Of a stretch of DNA of 64,000 nt, positions 7,643 to 43,098 are shown piece after piece. The first letter of the stretch is position 1, and every line of letters begins with the position of its first letter. Source of the stretch: Thermoproteota archaeon (GTDB lineage: Archaea > Korarchaeota > Korarchaeia > Korarchaeales > Korarchaeaceae); NCBI GenBank assembly GCA_026986575.1, contig JALSOH010000006.1:186001-250000 (forward strand), in the 5' to 3' direction. A program made the position numbers and the translations under genes. Under the pieces are notes generated by a model. That model saw only the letters and a list, made by a program, of their open reading frames with translations. It was not told the DNA's origin and searched no databases.

Positions 7643-7715
7643 CGATACGATAAATTGTTTCCTCTCTTCCTCCGTTGGAGACGCTGGGGATCCTTAGTAT
7701 TACATCGTCAGCTCA

Positions 7716-7725
7716 CTTTAATTTT
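7716..7725 (+). promoter_or_regulatory. TATA box for the HEPN/MNT pair
   Basis: CTTTAATTTT is centred about 27 bases upstream of ATG 7747, which would place the transcription start at the A of the start codon. This supports a leaderless mRNA and the choice of ATG 7747 over an upstream in-frame codon. Confidence 0.5.
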
Positions 7726-7746
7726 GGGTACCCGTCCTTCTATCCG

Positions 7747-8157
7747 ATGGATGAAAGCAGGCTTGCTAGATACAGAGAAAAAATGGAATACGTTATAGAT
7801 GCATTGGAATCTATCAGGGAACCGAGAACTCAACTTGAGCTGTCTGGTGTGTTCTATAACCTCATAACCTCTATAGAGGCTTCTATGGATCTAATAGCGA
7901 TGCTTCTAAGGGATTTGGGGGAAAGGATAGAAGATGACTACACAAATGTGGATAAGCTTGTGAAATTGGGTATCTTAAGTGATGAATTGGGAGAGAGTCT
8001 GAAAAAGTGCAACGGGCTGAGAAACTGGTTGGTTCACAGGTATAACAGAGTAGATCCTGAACTGGTGATGGAGTCTGTGGAGGAGGTGAAAGAGACGCTG
8101 TACTCCCTGCTGAGGAGACTGGAGGAGGTGCTAAATGAGATCGCTGGATCAGATTAG
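7747..8157 (+). CDS. hepT: HepT-type HEPN toxin (RNase)
   Basis: This 136-residue all-helical protein is of the DUF86/HepT family. The R-x4-H-x-Y active site is intact as RNWLVHRY near residue 97. The N-terminal helix (MDESRLARYREKMEYV) and the central LSGVFYNLITSIEASMDL helix match the family. HepT proteins cleave tRNA or mRNA and are inactivated by the neighbouring MNT enzyme, which AMPylates the tyrosine of the motif. The gene overlaps the partner by 23 bases. ATG 7747 is the start, in line with the TATA position. It is divergent from the CoA-ligase operon. A decayed relative lies at 1.3-2.3 kb. Confidence 0.87.
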   Translation: MDESRLARYREKMEYVIDALESIREPRTQLELSGVFYNLITSIEASMDLIAMLLRDLGERIEDDYTNVDKLVKLGILSDELGESLKKCNGLRNWLVHRYNRVDPELVMESVEEVKETLYSLLRRLEEVLNEIAGSD

Positions 8158-8557
8158 GAGAGATCTGAGGTTTCTCTCTTCGTACGAAGTGGTCTTATAC
8201 GGCTCCTATGTTACAGGAGAGTACACAAGGGAGTCCGACATAGATGTGGCAGTCATCACGCGAGAGAAGGACAGGAACAGGAACTTCAAGATCCAGCTCG
8301 ATATCTGGGGAAAGGTGCCCTCGCCCATATATGATGTGAGGGTGTTCGAACTGTTACCGATAAGGGTCAAGGCCTCGGTGATCGGCGGGTACTTGGTCCT
8401 CTTCGGAAGTGAGCCCGATATTTCGGAGTACTTCTACAGCTGGAGGAAGACATGGGAAGAGGTTAGAAGGAGAATAGAGCCCATGTCCATAGAGGAGAAG
8501 ATTAAGGCGGTTAGGAGAAGGAAGAAGATCCTGAAAACTATCACTAGACCCGAGTAG
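8135..8557 (+). CDS. mntA: MNT-type nucleotidyltransferase antitoxin
   Basis: The 140-residue protein has the minimal nucleotidyltransferase signature GSYVTGEYTRESDIDVAV (residues about 23-40), containing the GS motif and the paired Asp metal ligands. The basic C-terminal tail follows a helix-rich region. Family members transfer AMP from ATP to the HepT active-site tyrosine and so neutralise it. It overlaps hepT by 23 bases, implying translational coupling. Both active-site motifs are intact, so this module should be functional. Confidence 0.87.
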   Translation: MRSLDQIRRDLRFLSSYEVVLYGSYVTGEYTRESDIDVAVITREKDRNRNFKIQLDIWGKVPSPIYDVRVFELLPIRVKASVIGGYLVLFGSEPDISEYFYSWRKTWEEVRRRIEPMSIEEKIKAVRRRKKILKTITRPE

Positions 8558-35659: not shown

Positions 35660-35968
35660 TCAAGTATTGTACGAATCTCCCCGTCTATCTAGGAGTTCCC
35701 TTGCCCTTTCGAGAAACTTGGTCAACGAAGGATCTGGGAGTGGATATACCCCTCCCTTCACGTGTCTATGGTGAGGGTTCGATCGAACCTCCGGGTGATG
35801 AGGTCTGTTATCCCACCATTCCTCGTAACCGCTAACGCGCAAGTAATAGCCATATGCAACTAATTTTCCACGCCAATATTCGCGGATCACTATCAAAGCC
35901 CCTTTTAAGCTAACGCGAACGCTCAGGTATTCTATCTCGTCTCCTATATTATGTTCAACTATCTCCAC
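35660..35968 (-). CDS. TumE-like (DUF6516) toxin
   Basis: The diagnostic block DNRPHHPEVRSNPHHRHV (residues about 53-70) and the preceding strands (LIVIREYWRGKLVAYGYYLRV) match the DUF6516/TumE toxin family. The annotated GTG 35968 gives 102 residues but appears to cut the N-terminus: the same frame upstream reads LKLIDKTIGKFSPVVE, which fits the family, yet there is no ATG, GTG or TTG before the stop at 36016. Either the start codon was mutated (a GTA sits where one would expect it) or the shorter form is used. The partner gene lies just upstream. Confidence 0.72.
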   Translation of the reverse strand: MEIVEHNIGDEIEYLSVRVSLKGALIVIREYWRGKLVAYGYYLRVSGYEEWWDNRPHHPEVRSNPHHRHVKGGVYPLPDPSLTKFLERARELLDRRGDSYNT

Positions 35969-36522: not shown

Positions 36523-36933
36523 TCAGTGAGATAACTCCTCAAACTCGCTTAGCAATTCCTCGCCCCTCTCAATCATCTCGATGATCTCCTGATCTGTTGT
36601 GACGGGCTTGGCCCCCCTAACTAGGCACTGGGCGGCTATGAGGGAGTCGAAGTAGTCGAGTCCCTTGGATGAAAGGAACGCCCCCAACGCAATATCTAAG
36701 GGGGAGAGAGGCTCGAGGGATCTGTCTATAACACTATTCAACAGGTGCCACACCTTGATCCTCTGATCCATGGTAAACCCCCTGCTCTTCATGAGCAAAT
36801 CGAGCTCCAAGAGGGAAGCCTGAGAGACTTTCCTGTCCTCACCGAGTTCCTCTATCATCTCAACGGAATGAGGGTGAAGCGGATCGGAGGGTCGAAGGTA
36901 GGCAATGAGGTAAACTGTGTCAATGATCTCCAC
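36523..36933 (-). CDS. vapC: VapC-type PIN-domain toxin
   Basis: The 136-residue PIN protein has metal-site residues in MEIIDTVYLIAYLRPSD, SLLELDLLMKSRG and GLDYFDSLIAAQCLVRG, and a C-terminal TTDQEI. The GTG start overlaps the AbrB-type antitoxin stop by 14 bases. All four acidic positions look present, so the RNase should be active. It is transcribed after its antitoxin from a shared promoter. Confidence 0.84.
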   Translation of the reverse strand: MEIIDTVYLIAYLRPSDPLHPHSVEMIEELGEDRKVSQASLLELDLLMKSRGFTMDQRIKVWHLLNSVIDRSLEPLSPLDIALGAFLSSKGLDYFDSLIAAQCLVRGAKPVTTDQEIIEMIERGEELLSEFEELSH

Positions 36934-37183
36934 TTAGCATCATCTCCAACATCTTGGAGGCCTCGTGATCCTCCTCCTTCCAGCCCTTGAACTTCTCATC
37001 GAAGATCTTAGAGACTTCCTCATACAGCTTGTCTAAAACTATGATTTCAGCTGAGCTATCACTGGTCACTTTCAGAAGGACTCTGCTCCCCTTCTTGATG
37101 TCCAGTTTGCGCCTTACCTCGGCGGGCAGGACCATTCTCCCACGATCATCAATAATTACCACATAACTCAAATTTCCCACCAC
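36920..37183 (-). CDS. vapB: AbrB-type antitoxin
   Basis: The 87-residue protein opens with an AbrB/MazE swapped-hairpin domain (VVIIDDRGRMVLPAEVRRKL, DIKKGSRVLLKV). An acidic, helical toxin-binding tail (LYEEVSKIFDEKF, KGWKEEDHEASKM) follows. GTG 37183 follows a TATA-like TTTATTTTTAAT at about 37198-37210, so the mRNA is likely leaderless. It should repress its own promoter together with VapC. Confidence 0.84.
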   Translation of the reverse strand: MVGNLSYVVIIDDRGRMVLPAEVRRKLDIKKGSRVLLKVTSDSSAEIIVLDKLYEEVSKIFDEKFKGWKEEDHEASKMLEMMLSGDH

Positions 37184-38829: not shown

Positions 38830-39459
38830 CTAGATGTACTTGAATAGGTTGAGGTAGGCCTCGGTGCTGAGCTCTATCACCCTGCCTTCGTCCACGTAGG
38901 TCACAAGGATCCCATTAAGCTTGGCCTTCCTCAGTAGCTCCATGGGTATGGGTGGATTTCGATAATACCTGTCCAGCAACTCCTTCCACTTCCTCAGCTC
39001 TATATCCGACCTTGCATGGGGCGGGGTGAGGAGGAAAGGAGGTATCTCCATTAGGTAGGTGGGGGGTGCCGCTAAATAGAATCTATCCGCGTACTGGCTA
39101 TACCTAGCGATCTTGCTGGCTATCCTCGCCCTGCAGAAACTGTCGGGATCCAAGGCATGGTCCGGAGGCACGAAGCCAGTTTCCACCTCTACTATCACCT
39201 TTCCCCCGTTCGTGCCCATTACATCGCATCTGAGGTCGTCCACTTTAACCTCTACATCCACCTGATATCCCTTTATGATCAGGTGAGCCGCTATCACCAG
39301 CTCCATGGCCGAATGATTTATCTTCACGGCCCCAGCTATGTAAAGCTCCGTCAGCCTGTCGATGAGCGGTCTCAGCCTGCCAGCCGGTGGACCCCCTCTC
39401 CCCTCTATCCTCTTGGCCAGCTCCTCTAGGTCGGACCTGAATCTCCGGGTATCCGGCAC
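38830..39459 (-). CDS. Conserved archaeal protein, possible PD-(D/E)XK nuclease fold
   Basis: The 209-residue protein has a helical N-terminus (RRFRSDLEELAKRIEGRGG). A core with alternating strands follows: KGYQVDVEVKVDDLRCDVMG, then KVIVEVETGFVPP. The spacing D...E-x-E resembles a PD-(D/E)XK catalytic centre with a preceding helix that could hold the first Glu (SAMELVIAAHL). No Lys follows the second acidic residue, so activity is uncertain. It lies in the toxin-rich island, and a role in defence or DNA repair is only a guess. No close family is recognised. Confidence 0.5.
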   Translation of the reverse strand: MPDTRRFRSDLEELAKRIEGRGGPPAGRLRPLIDRLTELYIAGAVKINHSAMELVIAAHLIIKGYQVDVEVKVDDLRCDVMGTNGGKVIVEVETGFVPPDHALDPDSFCRARIASKIARYSQYADRFYLAAPPTYLMEIPPFLLTPPHARSDIELRKWKELLDRYYRNPPIPMELLRKAKLNGILVTYVDEGRVIELSTEAYLNLFKYI

Positions 39460-39645
39460 CTGTGATCGACCTCTAAATAGGTATTAAGGCAGCGCGATGA
39501 CACTTTTTAATAAATCAATGACTATCCACTGGCAGGTGATTTCATTGAATGTGATGCAAACCGTTCTCTAAACAAAGAAATTATTTAGGATGCTTCCCAG
39601 AGTGAGGATGAAAATAGAACAAGAAAGCAGGGAGGTCTAAAGGTA

Positions 39646-41634
39646 ATGGCCCATAATGAAGCTCAAGGTGAGGAGAAATGCCTTAGTCTTGTACTGATCA
39701 AAGATATATTGTCGTTGAAAGAAGGCATTTCAAGGGCATTATTTGGAATAGTTGCCATCTATTACGCAAAAGTTTACTTTGAACTCTTAAAGAAAATTGT
39801 TCAAAATGGAATAAGTTTAGATATTATTTCTAAGATAATTATGGAGGTAAGAAATTTAATTTTAATAGTTGTATCAATTATATTTTTAACAGTTTTAATA
39901 AGATGTTTTATGATAAAGATAATAAGAAAGAACTTCATCTACAGAGCGGTAGTAGCAATTTATTTACATTTTTATTATGATTTTAAAATTAAATTATTGA
40001 GTTACCTTATAAACAAAATAAATACTCTAAGTAATGATGTAAGACAGTCTCAGTGGGAATCATTAAGATATTTGAAGATGTTTGTACTAACTTTGCTTGC
40101 GAGATTGATAGGACTTGGCGAATCCGAATTTATTAGAGAAGCTGCTATCTACATAGAAGAAACTAAAAAATTTAAAGAGAAATATTCATCTAATGTAAAA
40201 AAATATCTTCCTACAGTGCCTATGTCGTCAGAAGCCGTGGGAAAACCACTGCTAGTAAAAACTAATCACTTAAAGTATGGCTTCTACTGGAAGCCTTTTG
40301 ATTATACAATTTCACTTCTTTATGATGGGGCTCAACTTTTAAATATGATAAGTAATAAGGATAAGGAGAGAAGAAGAATAATATTAGAAGTGAATTTGTG
40401 TCAAGAAAAGAACGGACTTTTATCAATTTATAATAACGCAGGTAAGGTATTTATTTACGAACATTATGTTAAAAGATGTCTTGAATCGAGGGACTGTAAG
40501 AAAAAATTGGAGAGGCTAGCCAGTGAAATACATAACAGGATCAGAAAACCAATAACGTGGAAAGGAATTTATAAATTCCCTAAGGAATCACTCCCACTTC
40601 CTCTAAGATGGGCTTCAGGAGGAGTACTTCCCATAGCTTATTATAAAGAAAATTTTTGGTTTGTTCTCTTCTACCGGAACTTCTCCCCAATGTGCTGGAA
40701 TTTACCGTTGGGGGCATCAGAGACATTCAGTGAGCAGGAGAAGGTGGATATCATGTCTACCCGTGAAAGTATGGAGGAGATTTTACTAGTAGACAATGAG
40801 CCAGACAGGGGAAGTACACTTACACTAAAACCTATTTTCCCCCGAACGTCTCTGGAATTTAGATACATAAATGAATATATATGGCCAAAAGTTTATTCAT
40901 ATTTAAAAGAATATGCTAAACTCAGGCACCAACAAGACGGTTTTTCTATAAAGATACCTGAGGATCTCGGAGGGATATCAACTCCTGCTGGGGAGATATC
41001 CACTCCATATGATGTCAAAATTAAGTACAGATCCAAAAAAGAATCAATGATCCAAAATGTTTTATTTATAATAAATCCTGAGGAATTAGGAATAGAAATT
41101 ATACGACCCTTTATTTTCCTTATGAACGATGAGGACTATATACTTTGGGGGGAGATATGGAAGGGCGCATCAGCTATACCTAGAACTCCCGTACTACTTC
41201 TATCAGTTGATTATGTGCAAAATATCATCAAAAAGGGGGGAAAGTTTGGTGATAAATTGAAAGGTAACTATAAGAGATGCTCAGGATGTAGGTCGATTAT
41301 TAAAATTCCTAAGGAAAAATATGTATTATTCTACAAGGACATTCTCTTTGCCAAAGAGAGATTAGAGAACCTGAAGAGGCTGCCTAATCCGTCTTACAAA
41401 GAAAAACTTGAGATAAAAAGCCTTCGATGGCATAGTAGTTACTCAAAACAAATAGATTCGCTAATAAATTCAGCTAGAAAAGGCGGAGACCTAACTCTTA
41501 GAGAACATAGTATATTCATGAATTTCTGCCCGACTACTTGGAGATCTTTTGAAATACTTTACACTATCGAACGTTTAGATAAAAACTTTTTAGATAACAT
41601 GCTGAAAATCTGGTTTCTTGAGCGATTTCATTAA
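39646..41634 (+). CDS. Membrane-anchored Nudix-like protein, AT-rich and likely acquired
   Basis: The 662-residue protein is unlike its neighbours in base use: runs of AAA, ATA and TTT codons make the gene strongly AT-rich. Two or three membrane segments lie at about residues 28-50, 68-92 and 97-112. A Nudix-like domain follows: GGVLPIAYYK (325-334), WNLPLGASE (351-359), then E365-x7-R373-E-S-M-E-E378, which fits the second half of the Nudix box, although the first G-to-E spacing is three residues longer than usual. A C-x2-C pair (RCSGCRS) lies near residue 545. GGAGGT precedes ATG 39646. Membrane-tethered nucleotide hydrolases of this kind could act in nucleotide-signal or phage defence; this is inference. 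Confidence 0.55.
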   Translation: MAHNEAQGEEKCLSLVLIKDILSLKEGISRALFGIVAIYYAKVYFELLKKIVQNGISLDIISKIIMEVRNLILIVVSIIFLTVLIRCFMIKIIRKNFIYRAVVAIYLHFYYDFKIKLLSYLINKINTLSNDVRQSQWESLRYLKMFVLTLLARLIGLGESEFIREAAIYIEETKKFKEKYSSNVKKYLPTVPMSSEAVGKPLLVKTNHLKYGFYWKPFDYTISLLYDGAQLLNMISNKDKERRRIILEVNLCQEKNGLLSIYNNAGKVFIYEHYVKRCLESRDCKKKLERLASEIHNRIRKPITWKGIYKFPKESLPLPLRWASGGVLPIAYYKENFWFVLFYRNFSPMCWNLPLGASETFSEQEKVDIMSTRESMEEILLVDNEPDRGSTLTLKPIFPRTSLEFRYINEYIWPKVYSYLKEYAKLRHQQDGFSIKIPEDLGGISTPAGEISTPYDVKIKYRSKKESMIQNVLFIINPEELGIEIIRPFIFLMNDEDYILWGEIWKGASAIPRTPVLLLSVDYVQNIIKKGGKFGDKLKGNYKRCSGCRSIIKIPKEKYVLFYKDILFAKERLENLKRLPNPSYKEKLEIKSLRWHSSYSKQIDSLINSARKGGDLTLREHSIFMNFCPTTWRSFEILYTIERLDKNFLDNMLKIWFLERFH

Positions 41635-41661
41635 AAATTAGACTAGCTAACCAGCAAAGGG

Positions 41662-43098
41662 TTGAATGCGTTGATCCTGACCAAGATAGTAGCGACAATA
41701 GGCCCAGCTTCCTCTACCATGGAAGTGGTAAAGGGGATGATAGCGGAGGGCATGTCCGTTGCTAGAATGAACTTCTCCCACGGCACCCTAACTGAGAAAG
41801 CCAACCATATAGACTTGGTTCGTAGAGCCGCTCACGACCTTGGACTGAGGATAGGACTTATGTCCGACCTTCAAGGACCGGAGGTCAGAACCCACATGGG
41901 GAGGAAGGAACTGAAGGTAGAGGAGGGGGATGTGGTAACGGTCAGCGGGAAGGAGGGCTTGGGAGAGATCAAGATAAAGCCTTCCAGCGTCCTCAGAAAC
42001 TTGGCAGAGGGAGACGAGTTATTCATCGATGAAGGTAGGATCAGGCTCGTAGTGGAGGAAGTCGGAGATGTCCTGAAGTGCCGGGTGGTGCATGGAGGAG
42101 TGATAAGGGACAAGAGGTCGGTACACGCCTCGAAGCCCTTTGACCTCAAGGGGATTACCGAGGAGGACAGGTTAGCCATGAAGCTCTCCGTGGAGAAAGG
42201 AGTGGACTTCATAGCCCTCTCCTTCGTCAAGACGGTGGAGGACATTATAGAAGCTAAAGAGTTCTTGAAATCGCTGACTGACGATCCTCCCTCCCTAATA
42301 GCGAAGATAGAGACAAGAGAGGCAGTTGAGAACGCTAAGGAAATTCTGGAGGAGTCCTATGGGATAATGGTGGCCAGAGGAGATTTAGGCGTTGAGCTCC
42401 CGCTGGAGGAAGTGCCCCAGATCCAGAAGAAGCTGATAAGACTGGCTAACGAGGCCGCCAAGCCCGTGATAACCGCCACCGAGATGCTGGAATCCATGAC
42501 CTCGAGCCCCGTCCCGACTAGGGCGGAGGTAACTGATGTGTACAACGCCATAATGGATGGGAGCGACGCCGTCATGCTGTCAGCGGAGACTGCTGTTGGT
42601 AAGTATCCCGTACTGAGCGTCAGGTGGATGAGGGTCATAGCAGAGAGCGCTGAGCGTTCTCTAACCCCGAGGATGGACTTTCCCCTCACTTCGAAGGCTG
42701 CTTTCATAGGTAAGGCGGCCGTGGAGGCGGCGGAAATGCTGAAGAGCCCCGTCATACTGTGCTTCACCTACACGGGATTCACCGCTAGGCATGTGGTGAG
42801 GCACAGGCCCAAGGCCAGAATACTAGCTCTCCTAAGCAGGGAAAAGACTAGAGGTTTACTGACCCTGAGCTGGGGAGTCGAGAGCCTCCTCGTCTCCCAA
42901 GACTTGGACGAGGCCGTGAGGCAAGCGGTTAACCATTGCTTGGAAAGGGGGGCGTTGAACATTGAGGATACCATAGTTGTGACGTTCGGACATCCTCACG
43001 GAAGGGCCAAGACGAACTCGCTCAGGATACTCGGCGTCGAGGAGGTGCTTCAAGCGGGGGAGCCGAATCCCTCCCCCACCACCGGCCCGCCATCGTAG
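41662..43098 (+). CDS. pyk: Pyruvate kinase
   Basis: The 478-residue enzyme makes ATP and pyruvate from phosphoenolpyruvate. Signatures are TKIVATIGPASS at the N-terminus, RMNFSHGT, FIALSFVKTVEDI, LIAKIETREAVENAKEI, MVARGDLGVELPLEEVP and the active-site ITATEMLESM. The B domain is present (residues about 70-165), as is the C-terminal domain. Start TTG 41662 is weakly supported; TTG 41671 is an alternative. Its last 49 bases overlap the end of the convergent pyrC gene. Confidence 0.94.
   Translation: MNALILTKIVATIGPASSTMEVVKGMIAEGMSVARMNFSHGTLTEKANHIDLVRRAAHDLGLRIGLMSDLQGPEVRTHMGRKELKVEEGDVVTVSGKEGLGEIKIKPSSVLRNLAEGDELFIDEGRIRLVVEEVGDVLKCRVVHGGVIRDKRSVHASKPFDLKGITEEDRLAMKLSVEKGVDFIALSFVKTVEDIIEAKEFLKSLTDDPPSLIAKIETREAVENAKEILEESYGIMVARGDLGVELPLEEVPQIQKKLIRLANEAAKPVITATEMLESMTSSPVPTRAEVTDVYNAIMDGSDAVMLSAETAVGKYPVLSVRWMRVIAESAERSLTPRMDFPLTSKAAFIGKAAVEAAEMLKSPVILCFTYTGFTARHVVRHRPKARILALLSREKTRGLLTLSWGVESLLVSQDLDEAVRQAVNHCLERGALNIEDTIVVTFGHPHGRAKTNSLRILGVEEVLQAGEPNPSPTTGPPS

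Follow-up and report, generated by a model that had tools for sequence, protein, structure and literature searches.

What is the AT-rich gene that lies next to pyruvate kinase in this archaeal genome, how did it arrive there, and what might its protein do? The evidence on the gene, its composition, its horizontal gain, the homology of its module, the Nudix fold and the fusion partners is computational and is shown step by step below. It was gathered around a window of 64,000 nucleotides, which is the whole stretch of DNA analysed. Within the window, positions 39646-41634 of the forward strand form a frame of 662 codons without a stop. By arithmetic, stops would make up about 7% of codons drawn at random from bases of the gene's composition, so that 662 consecutive sense codons are not a product of chance. 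A pseudogene or chance frame was ruled out, the frame being intact and homologous to an intact copy in another archaeon (G470). A sequence-only reading of this DNA had described the frame as intact and its codon use as AT-rich next to GC-richer neighbours, and both descriptions were borne out, the second of them by a GC and codon scan. The GC content of the gene is 33.5%, compared with a median of 55.2% for the 52 other window ORFs of at least 150 residues, none of which is lower. Its GC3 is 0.31 against a median of 0.685 for the same ORFs, and no other ORF of the window deviates as far in codon use (rank 1 of 53). The gene and its parts are as follows.

39646..41634, forward strand: 662-residue frame, with an N-terminal membrane hairpin, a helical linker and a predicted Nudix-fold module (from the ORF, hydropathy and model)
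39703..39924, forward strand: predicted membrane hairpin, residues 20-93 (from hydropathy and model helices; first helix weak)
39859-39915, forward strand: strong transmembrane helix, residues 72-90 (from hydropathy)
39925..40263, forward strand: helical linker, residues 94-206 (low confidence, model pLDDT mostly 33-62)
40264..41631, forward strand: conserved module, residues 207-662 (from alignments A4 and A6 and models)
40711..40779, forward strand: Nudix-type box, residues 356-378 (G356 ... R373 E374 E377 E378; from alignments)
41278..41289, forward strand: CSGC pair, residues 545-548 (seen in the sequence; not conserved across the family)
41527..41544, forward strand: C-terminal CPTTWR motif (from alignments)

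Two or three N-terminal membrane helices had been proposed. By mean hydropathy, a single transmembrane stretch is strong (2.89 for residues 72-90) and two others are weak (1.28 for residues ~21-39 and 1.46 for residues 145-163). Long helices at residues 10-53 and 58-93 were present in the predicted model at low pLDDT (about 30-66). The protein is very probably anchored in the membrane. The helical linker is not conserved and is missing from most relatives in the alignments. The module that follows consists of a short beta-rich N-terminal part, a Nudix core with insertions, and a helical C-terminal part.

To place the gene in its surroundings, we list its direct neighbours, the site that it occupies and the toxin modules upstream.

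35660-35968, reverse strand: TumE-like toxin ORF, upstream of the 662-residue gene
36523-37183, reverse strand: PIN and MazE-type pair (VapBC-like), upstream of the 662-residue gene
38830..39459, reverse strand: left neighbour, core gene, 209 residues (no Pfam match; possible nuclease fold by eye)
39460..41679, no strand: variable cargo site, 2.2 kb in the window (from flank comparison with relatives)
41662..43098, forward strand: right neighbour, core gene, pyruvate kinase (PF00224, 1.6e-96)

Pyruvate kinase was present in 12 of the 16 same-genus genomes, our own counted. The flanking region was compared in 7 of the other 11 pyruvate-kinase genomes (all except G001, G004, G010 and G011), and six of the seven also have the left neighbour there; G005 was uninformative for the site, its contig having no upstream match. 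Between the matched flanks lie 62 bp in G003 and 85 bp in both G012 and G009, compared with 2.2 kb in the window. Three further genomes hold 1073 bp (G007), 1077 bp (G015) and 1931 bp (G008) that are unlike the window insert. Since relatives carry either 62-85 bp or unrelated DNA, the site takes different cargo. The alternative cargo has a GC content of 0.46-0.49 and PIN-like and AbrB-like frames, recognised by eye; that of G008 also holds a 247-residue frame with an N-terminal hydrophobic stretch, for which there was no Pfam match. A search for direct repeats at the borders of the window insert gave nothing longer than a 9-base match.

The gene is unique in composition within the window, relatives have little or other DNA at the site, and a search at E 0.1 across the 28 remaining genomes of its phylum, of which 15 belong to its genus, detected no homologue. 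For these reasons the gene was almost certainly gained horizontally, as the sequence-only reading had supposed. A search at E 0.001 likewise recovered no homologue among 41 genomes. We looked for the gene at the same place with normal composition in relatives, and this did not occur. A housekeeping gene of the lineage was ruled out by the absence from relatives.

The gene had also been placed in an island of toxin modules. Small toxin modules do lie upstream, including a weak CcdA-like ORF besides those listed, but the direct neighbours are core genes. Within the window no PADLOC defence gene adjoins the 662-residue gene; the weak candidate-system matches of PADLOC in the window are the TumE-like ORF and an MNT gene 31 kb away. 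As a separate observation, the PIN-like and AbrB-like frames of three relatives (L051, L052 and L053, from G007, G008 and G015) mark the intergenic site by pyruvate kinase as a recurrent cargo site.

Searches for the wider family were conducted with single sequences, profiles and short peptides. As a single query, the window protein had no match in Pfam, PADLOC, NCBIfam, PHROGs or PDB sequences, nor in 72,556 plasmids, 50,697 phages, genome contigs or viral contigs. Family profiles found no member in viral contigs, and a bacterial module had no match in plasmids and phages. Among 394 genomes, the only convincing matches to the single sequence were in the Lokiarchaeote G100 (35% identity over 259 residues) and in G135; three of the six non-self matches (L004, L005, L006), weak ones from three further genomes, were rejected as spurious, being short, of low complexity or out of frame. 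The G100 contig is titled Candidatus Lokiarchaeota, and its genome falls in the same domain as that of the window, which makes the host an archaeon. Profile search added G470, and by this means the module was found in 2 of the 115 genomes of the class of G470 and in 1 of the 47 of the class of G100. When 84,980 species genomes were searched with two short peptides from conserved stretches, nine loci came back, a lower bound since the search detects only members that contain these peptides. These loci are the G100 contig and eight bacterial loci from bacterium DBS1-2, Deltaproteobacteria, Chlorobiaceae, Planctomycetota, Herbinix, Aminicenantes, Proteobacteria and Desulfosporosinus. A profile built with the eight bacterial members included recovered all of them at E 1e-135 or lower, and their genomes carry a single copy each (8 of 8). 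With the starting genome counted, 5 of 343 Planctomycetota genomes and 2 of 375 genomes of the phylum of L018 matched, and in our own phylum 1 of 29 genomes carries the gene.

Ten of the twelve family copies measured have a lower GC content than the median of their locus, L019 only just, while the L018 and L022 copies do not lie below it. The copies of G100 and G135 have frame breaks at different places (near 1490 in L002 and near 2055 in L003, respectively). Decay and assembly error are indistinguishable as causes of these breaks; the G100 sequence is a MAG contig titled 2.5x coverage. Judging by these sequence searches, the module family is apparently rare, mobile, distributed across bacteria and archaea, and undescribed; no description of it was found among the open-licence papers listed, going by titles, beginnings of abstracts and some passages.

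Alignment of the module revealed a conserved core. Alignment A4 (11 rows) has 24 invariant columns and alignment A6 (10 rows) has 26; the N-terminal fragment of L016 was misaligned and was dropped before structure prediction, and L089 (a partial match, from G1427) and L037 are in no alignment. Numbered along the aligned stretch that begins at residue 207, the invariants of A4 include RW..GG, R138, P142, N146, G150, R167-E168 and E171-E172, as well as GxE (276/278), LxGE, RxP and F..D. The R and the three E residues of RExxEE do not vary among the 11 rows of A4, and the motif recurs in each of the 15 rows of the tree set. The Nudix-like box that had been noticed in the sequence corresponds to RESMEE at residues 373-378, 17 residues after G356. 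According to passages of PMC5688067, the canonical Nudix box is Gx5Ex5[UA]xREx2EExGU. The family departs from this pattern: the G and RExxEE are kept, but the G-to-R spacing is 17 or more in 15 rows compared with the canonical 14, giving a loop 3 residues longer in the window protein, and the glutamate at G+6 is not conserved. Profiles returned no Nudix match for the window protein (Pfam, NCBIfam) or for its relatives (Pfam).

A cysteine pair had been pointed out as well. CSGC is present at residues 545-548 but is not a family feature, the equivalent being CHEC in the intact archaeal relative G470 and a single Cys in G100 and L017, with no such pair in the other bacterial rows. The C-terminal CPTTWR of the window protein reads CPVTWK in close relatives and is FTPATAK-like in the TIR/NACHT clade.

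Structure prediction was carried out on two divergent sequences. The full-length window model has a mean pLDDT of 68, the module being mostly at 75-95 and the N-terminal part low, and the model of the bacterial module L020, made with the same sequence set, has a pLDDT of 86 and a pTM of 0.90. Foldseek against the PDB placed Nudix proteins first for both models with weak E values (best 0.16 and 0.17), and neither had a match at E <=0.001. A second structural aligner matched the window model to NUDT22 (Z 9.1) and Dcp2 (8.6), and the L020 module to an Enterococcus Nudix protein (Z 9.2), NUDT17 (8.8) and NadM (8.5), with Z 9 only somewhat above the values reached by models that have no clear match. 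The best 50 structural rows listed for each model are all Nudix-domain entries by title or general knowledge; the AraR, MUTYH and Dcp2-complex rows are among those that we take to be such entries. In the window model the box helix lies at residues 367-378, after the central strand as in the Nudix fold. A structure search of BFVD gave weak matches, the best at E 0.0057 to an unnamed protein.

Mainly because two divergent sequences gave uniformly Nudix matches, the module can be modelled with high confidence as having a Nudix fold; absence of this fold from structure prediction would have told against the sequence-only reading, and both models match it. Such a match carries no information on substrate. 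Human NUDT22 is the best structural match of the window protein (204 residues, rmsd 4.7) and is itself an atypical Nudix protein, said in passages of PMC5688067 to be without a conventional Nudix box. The two share 10% identity, however, and NUDT22 lies within 1 Z unit of Dcp2 and others, so that no special kinship is indicated. The fold is also that of the Nudix ADP-ribose sensors and hydrolases (NrtR, NadM, NUDT5, ADPR diphosphatases), and the ADP-ribose-bound Nudix domains of NrtR and NadM are among the structural matches. Unlike these proteins, the module has a longer loop in its box, carries a large insertion behind the Nudix helix and additional segments at both termini, and matches no Nudix profile in Pfam.

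The module is joined to a variety of partners. A membrane hairpin precedes it in the window protein, in L017 (by eye) and in G100, where the N-terminal part is in another frame; the G470 and G135 copies have no clear transmembrane hairpin. The module lies C-terminal to TIR in L020 and L022, to NACHT in L019, and to a TIR, AAA/NACHT-like and TPR arrangement in L018, where the NACHT match is weak. A calcineurin-like phosphoesterase is fused N-terminal to it in L023, a TCAD9/APH (kinase) remnant precedes it at the contig edge in L024, and a hydrophobic glycine-rich stretch (by eye) precedes it in L021. Planctomycetota copies are standalone or have a C-terminal TIR after the module (G547).

A tree built from 15 rows grouped the window protein with G470, G100 and L017 in one clade (97/95), so the membrane form recurs within the clade of the window protein, in the Lokiarchaeote and in L017. 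TIR, NACHT, phosphoesterase and APH proteins formed a second clade (100/98) and Planctomycetota proteins a third (100/99). Long branches, including those by which the window protein and G470 join, leave the inner order of the tree unsure. That TIR appears in two of the clades, and on either side of the module, points to fusion having happened more than once and to a functional tie.

Similar domains were found among the neighbours of bacterial copies. At L019:1127-8981, a same-strand run encodes a TIR protein, a MoxR-type AAA protein and a 1812-residue NACHT protein with the Nudix module at its C-terminal end, and an AbiEii-type AAA gene comes next; this run looks like an undescribed conflict operon. 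At L018:8709-13607, a DUF4231 protein and an RyR-domain AAA protein lie beside the TIR-NACHT-module gene, with a DUF4062 gene also near; we take DUF4231 to be SLATT-like and DUF4062 to be TIR-like. A DUF4365 gene follows L020. Nucleotide-signal conflict systems linked to TIR, phosphoesterase, SLATT and MoxR are described in passages of PMC7159879, and the company that the module keeps is typical of nucleotide-signal immunity. We consider it likely that the module family works in conflict or immunity, and the window protein is probably a sensor or effector of nucleotide-signal defence. The effector with an anti-phage role, originally called conceivable, is thus backed by circumstantial evidence, namely the TIR, NACHT, phosphoesterase and transmembrane fusions and the TIR/MoxR, DUF4231 and RyR neighbours, but not by the window itself, where the gene adjoins no PADLOC gene.

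How might such a protein act? The best overall explanation, to which we give somewhat less than an even chance, is that the Nudix module is a ligand reader that drives a membrane effector. The C-terminal module of ~450 residues would bind a nucleotide-diphosphate-linked ligand (NDP-X), most plausibly one derived from NAD+ or ADP-ribose, which would be held at a metal site formed around the helix that carries the invariant RExxEE motif. Binding, or turnover, of the ligand would trigger or oligomerise the N-terminal transmembrane hairpin, and the membrane part would then harm or arrest the infected cell. In relatives, the same module would be wired to TIR, NACHT/STAND, phosphoesterase and other domains, much as SAVED is in CBASS. 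We infer the ligand, sensing over metabolism, the membrane toxicity and the anti-phage role; control of a membrane effector by the Nudix module is plausible with the balance tilted slightly against it, and a ligand of the NAD+/ADP-ribose type is a tentative proposal.

We favour the sensor-effector reading because one module has many interchangeable partners and because NrtR and Cap16 offer precedents. Nudix domains serve as ADP-ribose sensors in NrtR (passages of PMC9503650), and in Cap16 a Nudix domain is part of a transmembrane effector whose toxicity survives Nudix mutation (passages of PMC10419184). The SAVED effectors of CBASS provide an analogy only, that of a shared C-terminal ligand module with interchangeable N-terminal parts, which include TIR, calcineurin-like phosphoesterase and 2TM (passages of PMC10419184). 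Unlike SAVED, the module here has a predicted Nudix fold, and no cyclic-oligonucleotide synthase was identified. Neither the window protein nor the eight bacterial relatives had a SAVED match in Pfam and PADLOC, the only SAVED-named matches being to the TIR part of the SAVED_TIR model in bacterial relatives.

It is possible, though doubtful, that the module is an undescribed, SAVED-like shared immune sensor of Nudix fold that reads a NAD+/ADP-ribose-type messenger and is swapped among membrane hairpins, TIR, NACHT/STAND and phosphoesterase effectors in bacteria as well as archaea; the window archaeon and the Lokiarchaeote would each have a self-contained membrane version. If so, a domain common to TIR, STAND, phosphoesterase and membrane proteins has been missed by Pfam, NCBIfam and PADLOC, one ligand class would be read by many effectors, and archaea including a Lokiarchaeote would have a nucleotide-signal membrane effector with no obvious CD-NTase.

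Alternatively, the Nudix module may itself be active, in a toxic or quenching role, hydrolysing the nucleotide pool or a messenger (for example ADP-ribose released by TIR, NAD+ or NDP-sugars), with the hairpin merely an anchor. The RExxEE motif in 15 of 15 rows is consistent with this, and its conservation throughout suggests catalysis, fitting an active hydrolase at least as well as it does a pure sensor. TIR domains fused at either end of the module are as expected if it acts on TIR products, and many of the structural matches are ADP-ribose or NDP-sugar hydrolases. Nevertheless, the box is abnormal, with its longer loop and no fixed glutamate at the canonical distance from the G, the exchange of N-terminal domains is more reminiscent of a single sensor serving many effectors, and the Cap16 result cited above speaks against it, so that hydrolysis as the main activity is rather unlikely.

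A further alternative is that the protein is a metabolic Nudix enzyme that turns over NAD+, CoA or nucleotide sugars and travels as accessory cargo, without taking part in conflict. In two archaea the module gene lies between nadB and nadA. In G470 an intact gene of 609 residues follows a nadB-like gene at a distance of 10 bp and is separated by 74 bp from a nadA-like gene downstream (both by eye), on the same strand, and the frame-broken copy of G135 occupies the same place. Of the 61 genomes in the genus of G470, 58 had a nadA match. In several of 30 nadA loci nadB lies directly upstream, at ~70 bp in the two nearest relatives, G222 and G506; in others the two genes are 0.8-1.3 kb apart, and in four no nadB occurs within the stretch given. 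The placement may reflect a link to NAD+ or just another insertion site. These nad-operon copies, two of the three in other archaea, and the sugar-nucleotide genes that adjoin L017 (by eye) would also fit metabolism, as would the pyruvate kinase next to the window gene and the standalone copies in Planctomycetota. Such a role is nonetheless improbable, given the sporadic occurrence in every group of genomes counted above, the GC content below that of the locus in most copies measured, and the fusions to TIR, NACHT and phosphoesterase.

Finally, a divergent Cap16-type (2TM and Nudix, Sa_NUDIX) CBASS effector answering a cyclic oligonucleotide would share with the window protein two N-terminal membrane helices (the first weak here) before a Nudix-fold domain, and a bona fide PF18167 protein likewise shows a pair of hydrophobic stretches near its N-terminus, with a REFYEEL helix (REFxEE type) after an inserted box, but this reading is highly improbable and Cap16 identity itself was rejected on the results of profile, hhalign and CD-NTase tests: no family member scanned matched PF18167, hhalign of the family with one PF18167 protein covered 20 columns at a probability of 1.9%, the genome has no SMODS nucleotidyltransferase (PF18144) above cut-off (best match 16.7 against 26.5 bits, outside the window), and the module is ~450 residues compared with 199 profile positions and is also fused to TIR, NACHT and phosphoesterase domains.

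Two minor observations concern other junctions and genes. Upstream of nadA, the junction in L059-L088 ranges from ~70 bp to 1.3 kb and may be another cargo site. Within the window, at 7675-8557 on the forward strand, a HepT-like ribonuclease gene overlaps a nucleotidyltransferase gene in an ordinary HEPN-MNT toxin-antitoxin pair, and this HepT gene has the second most deviant codon use in the window.
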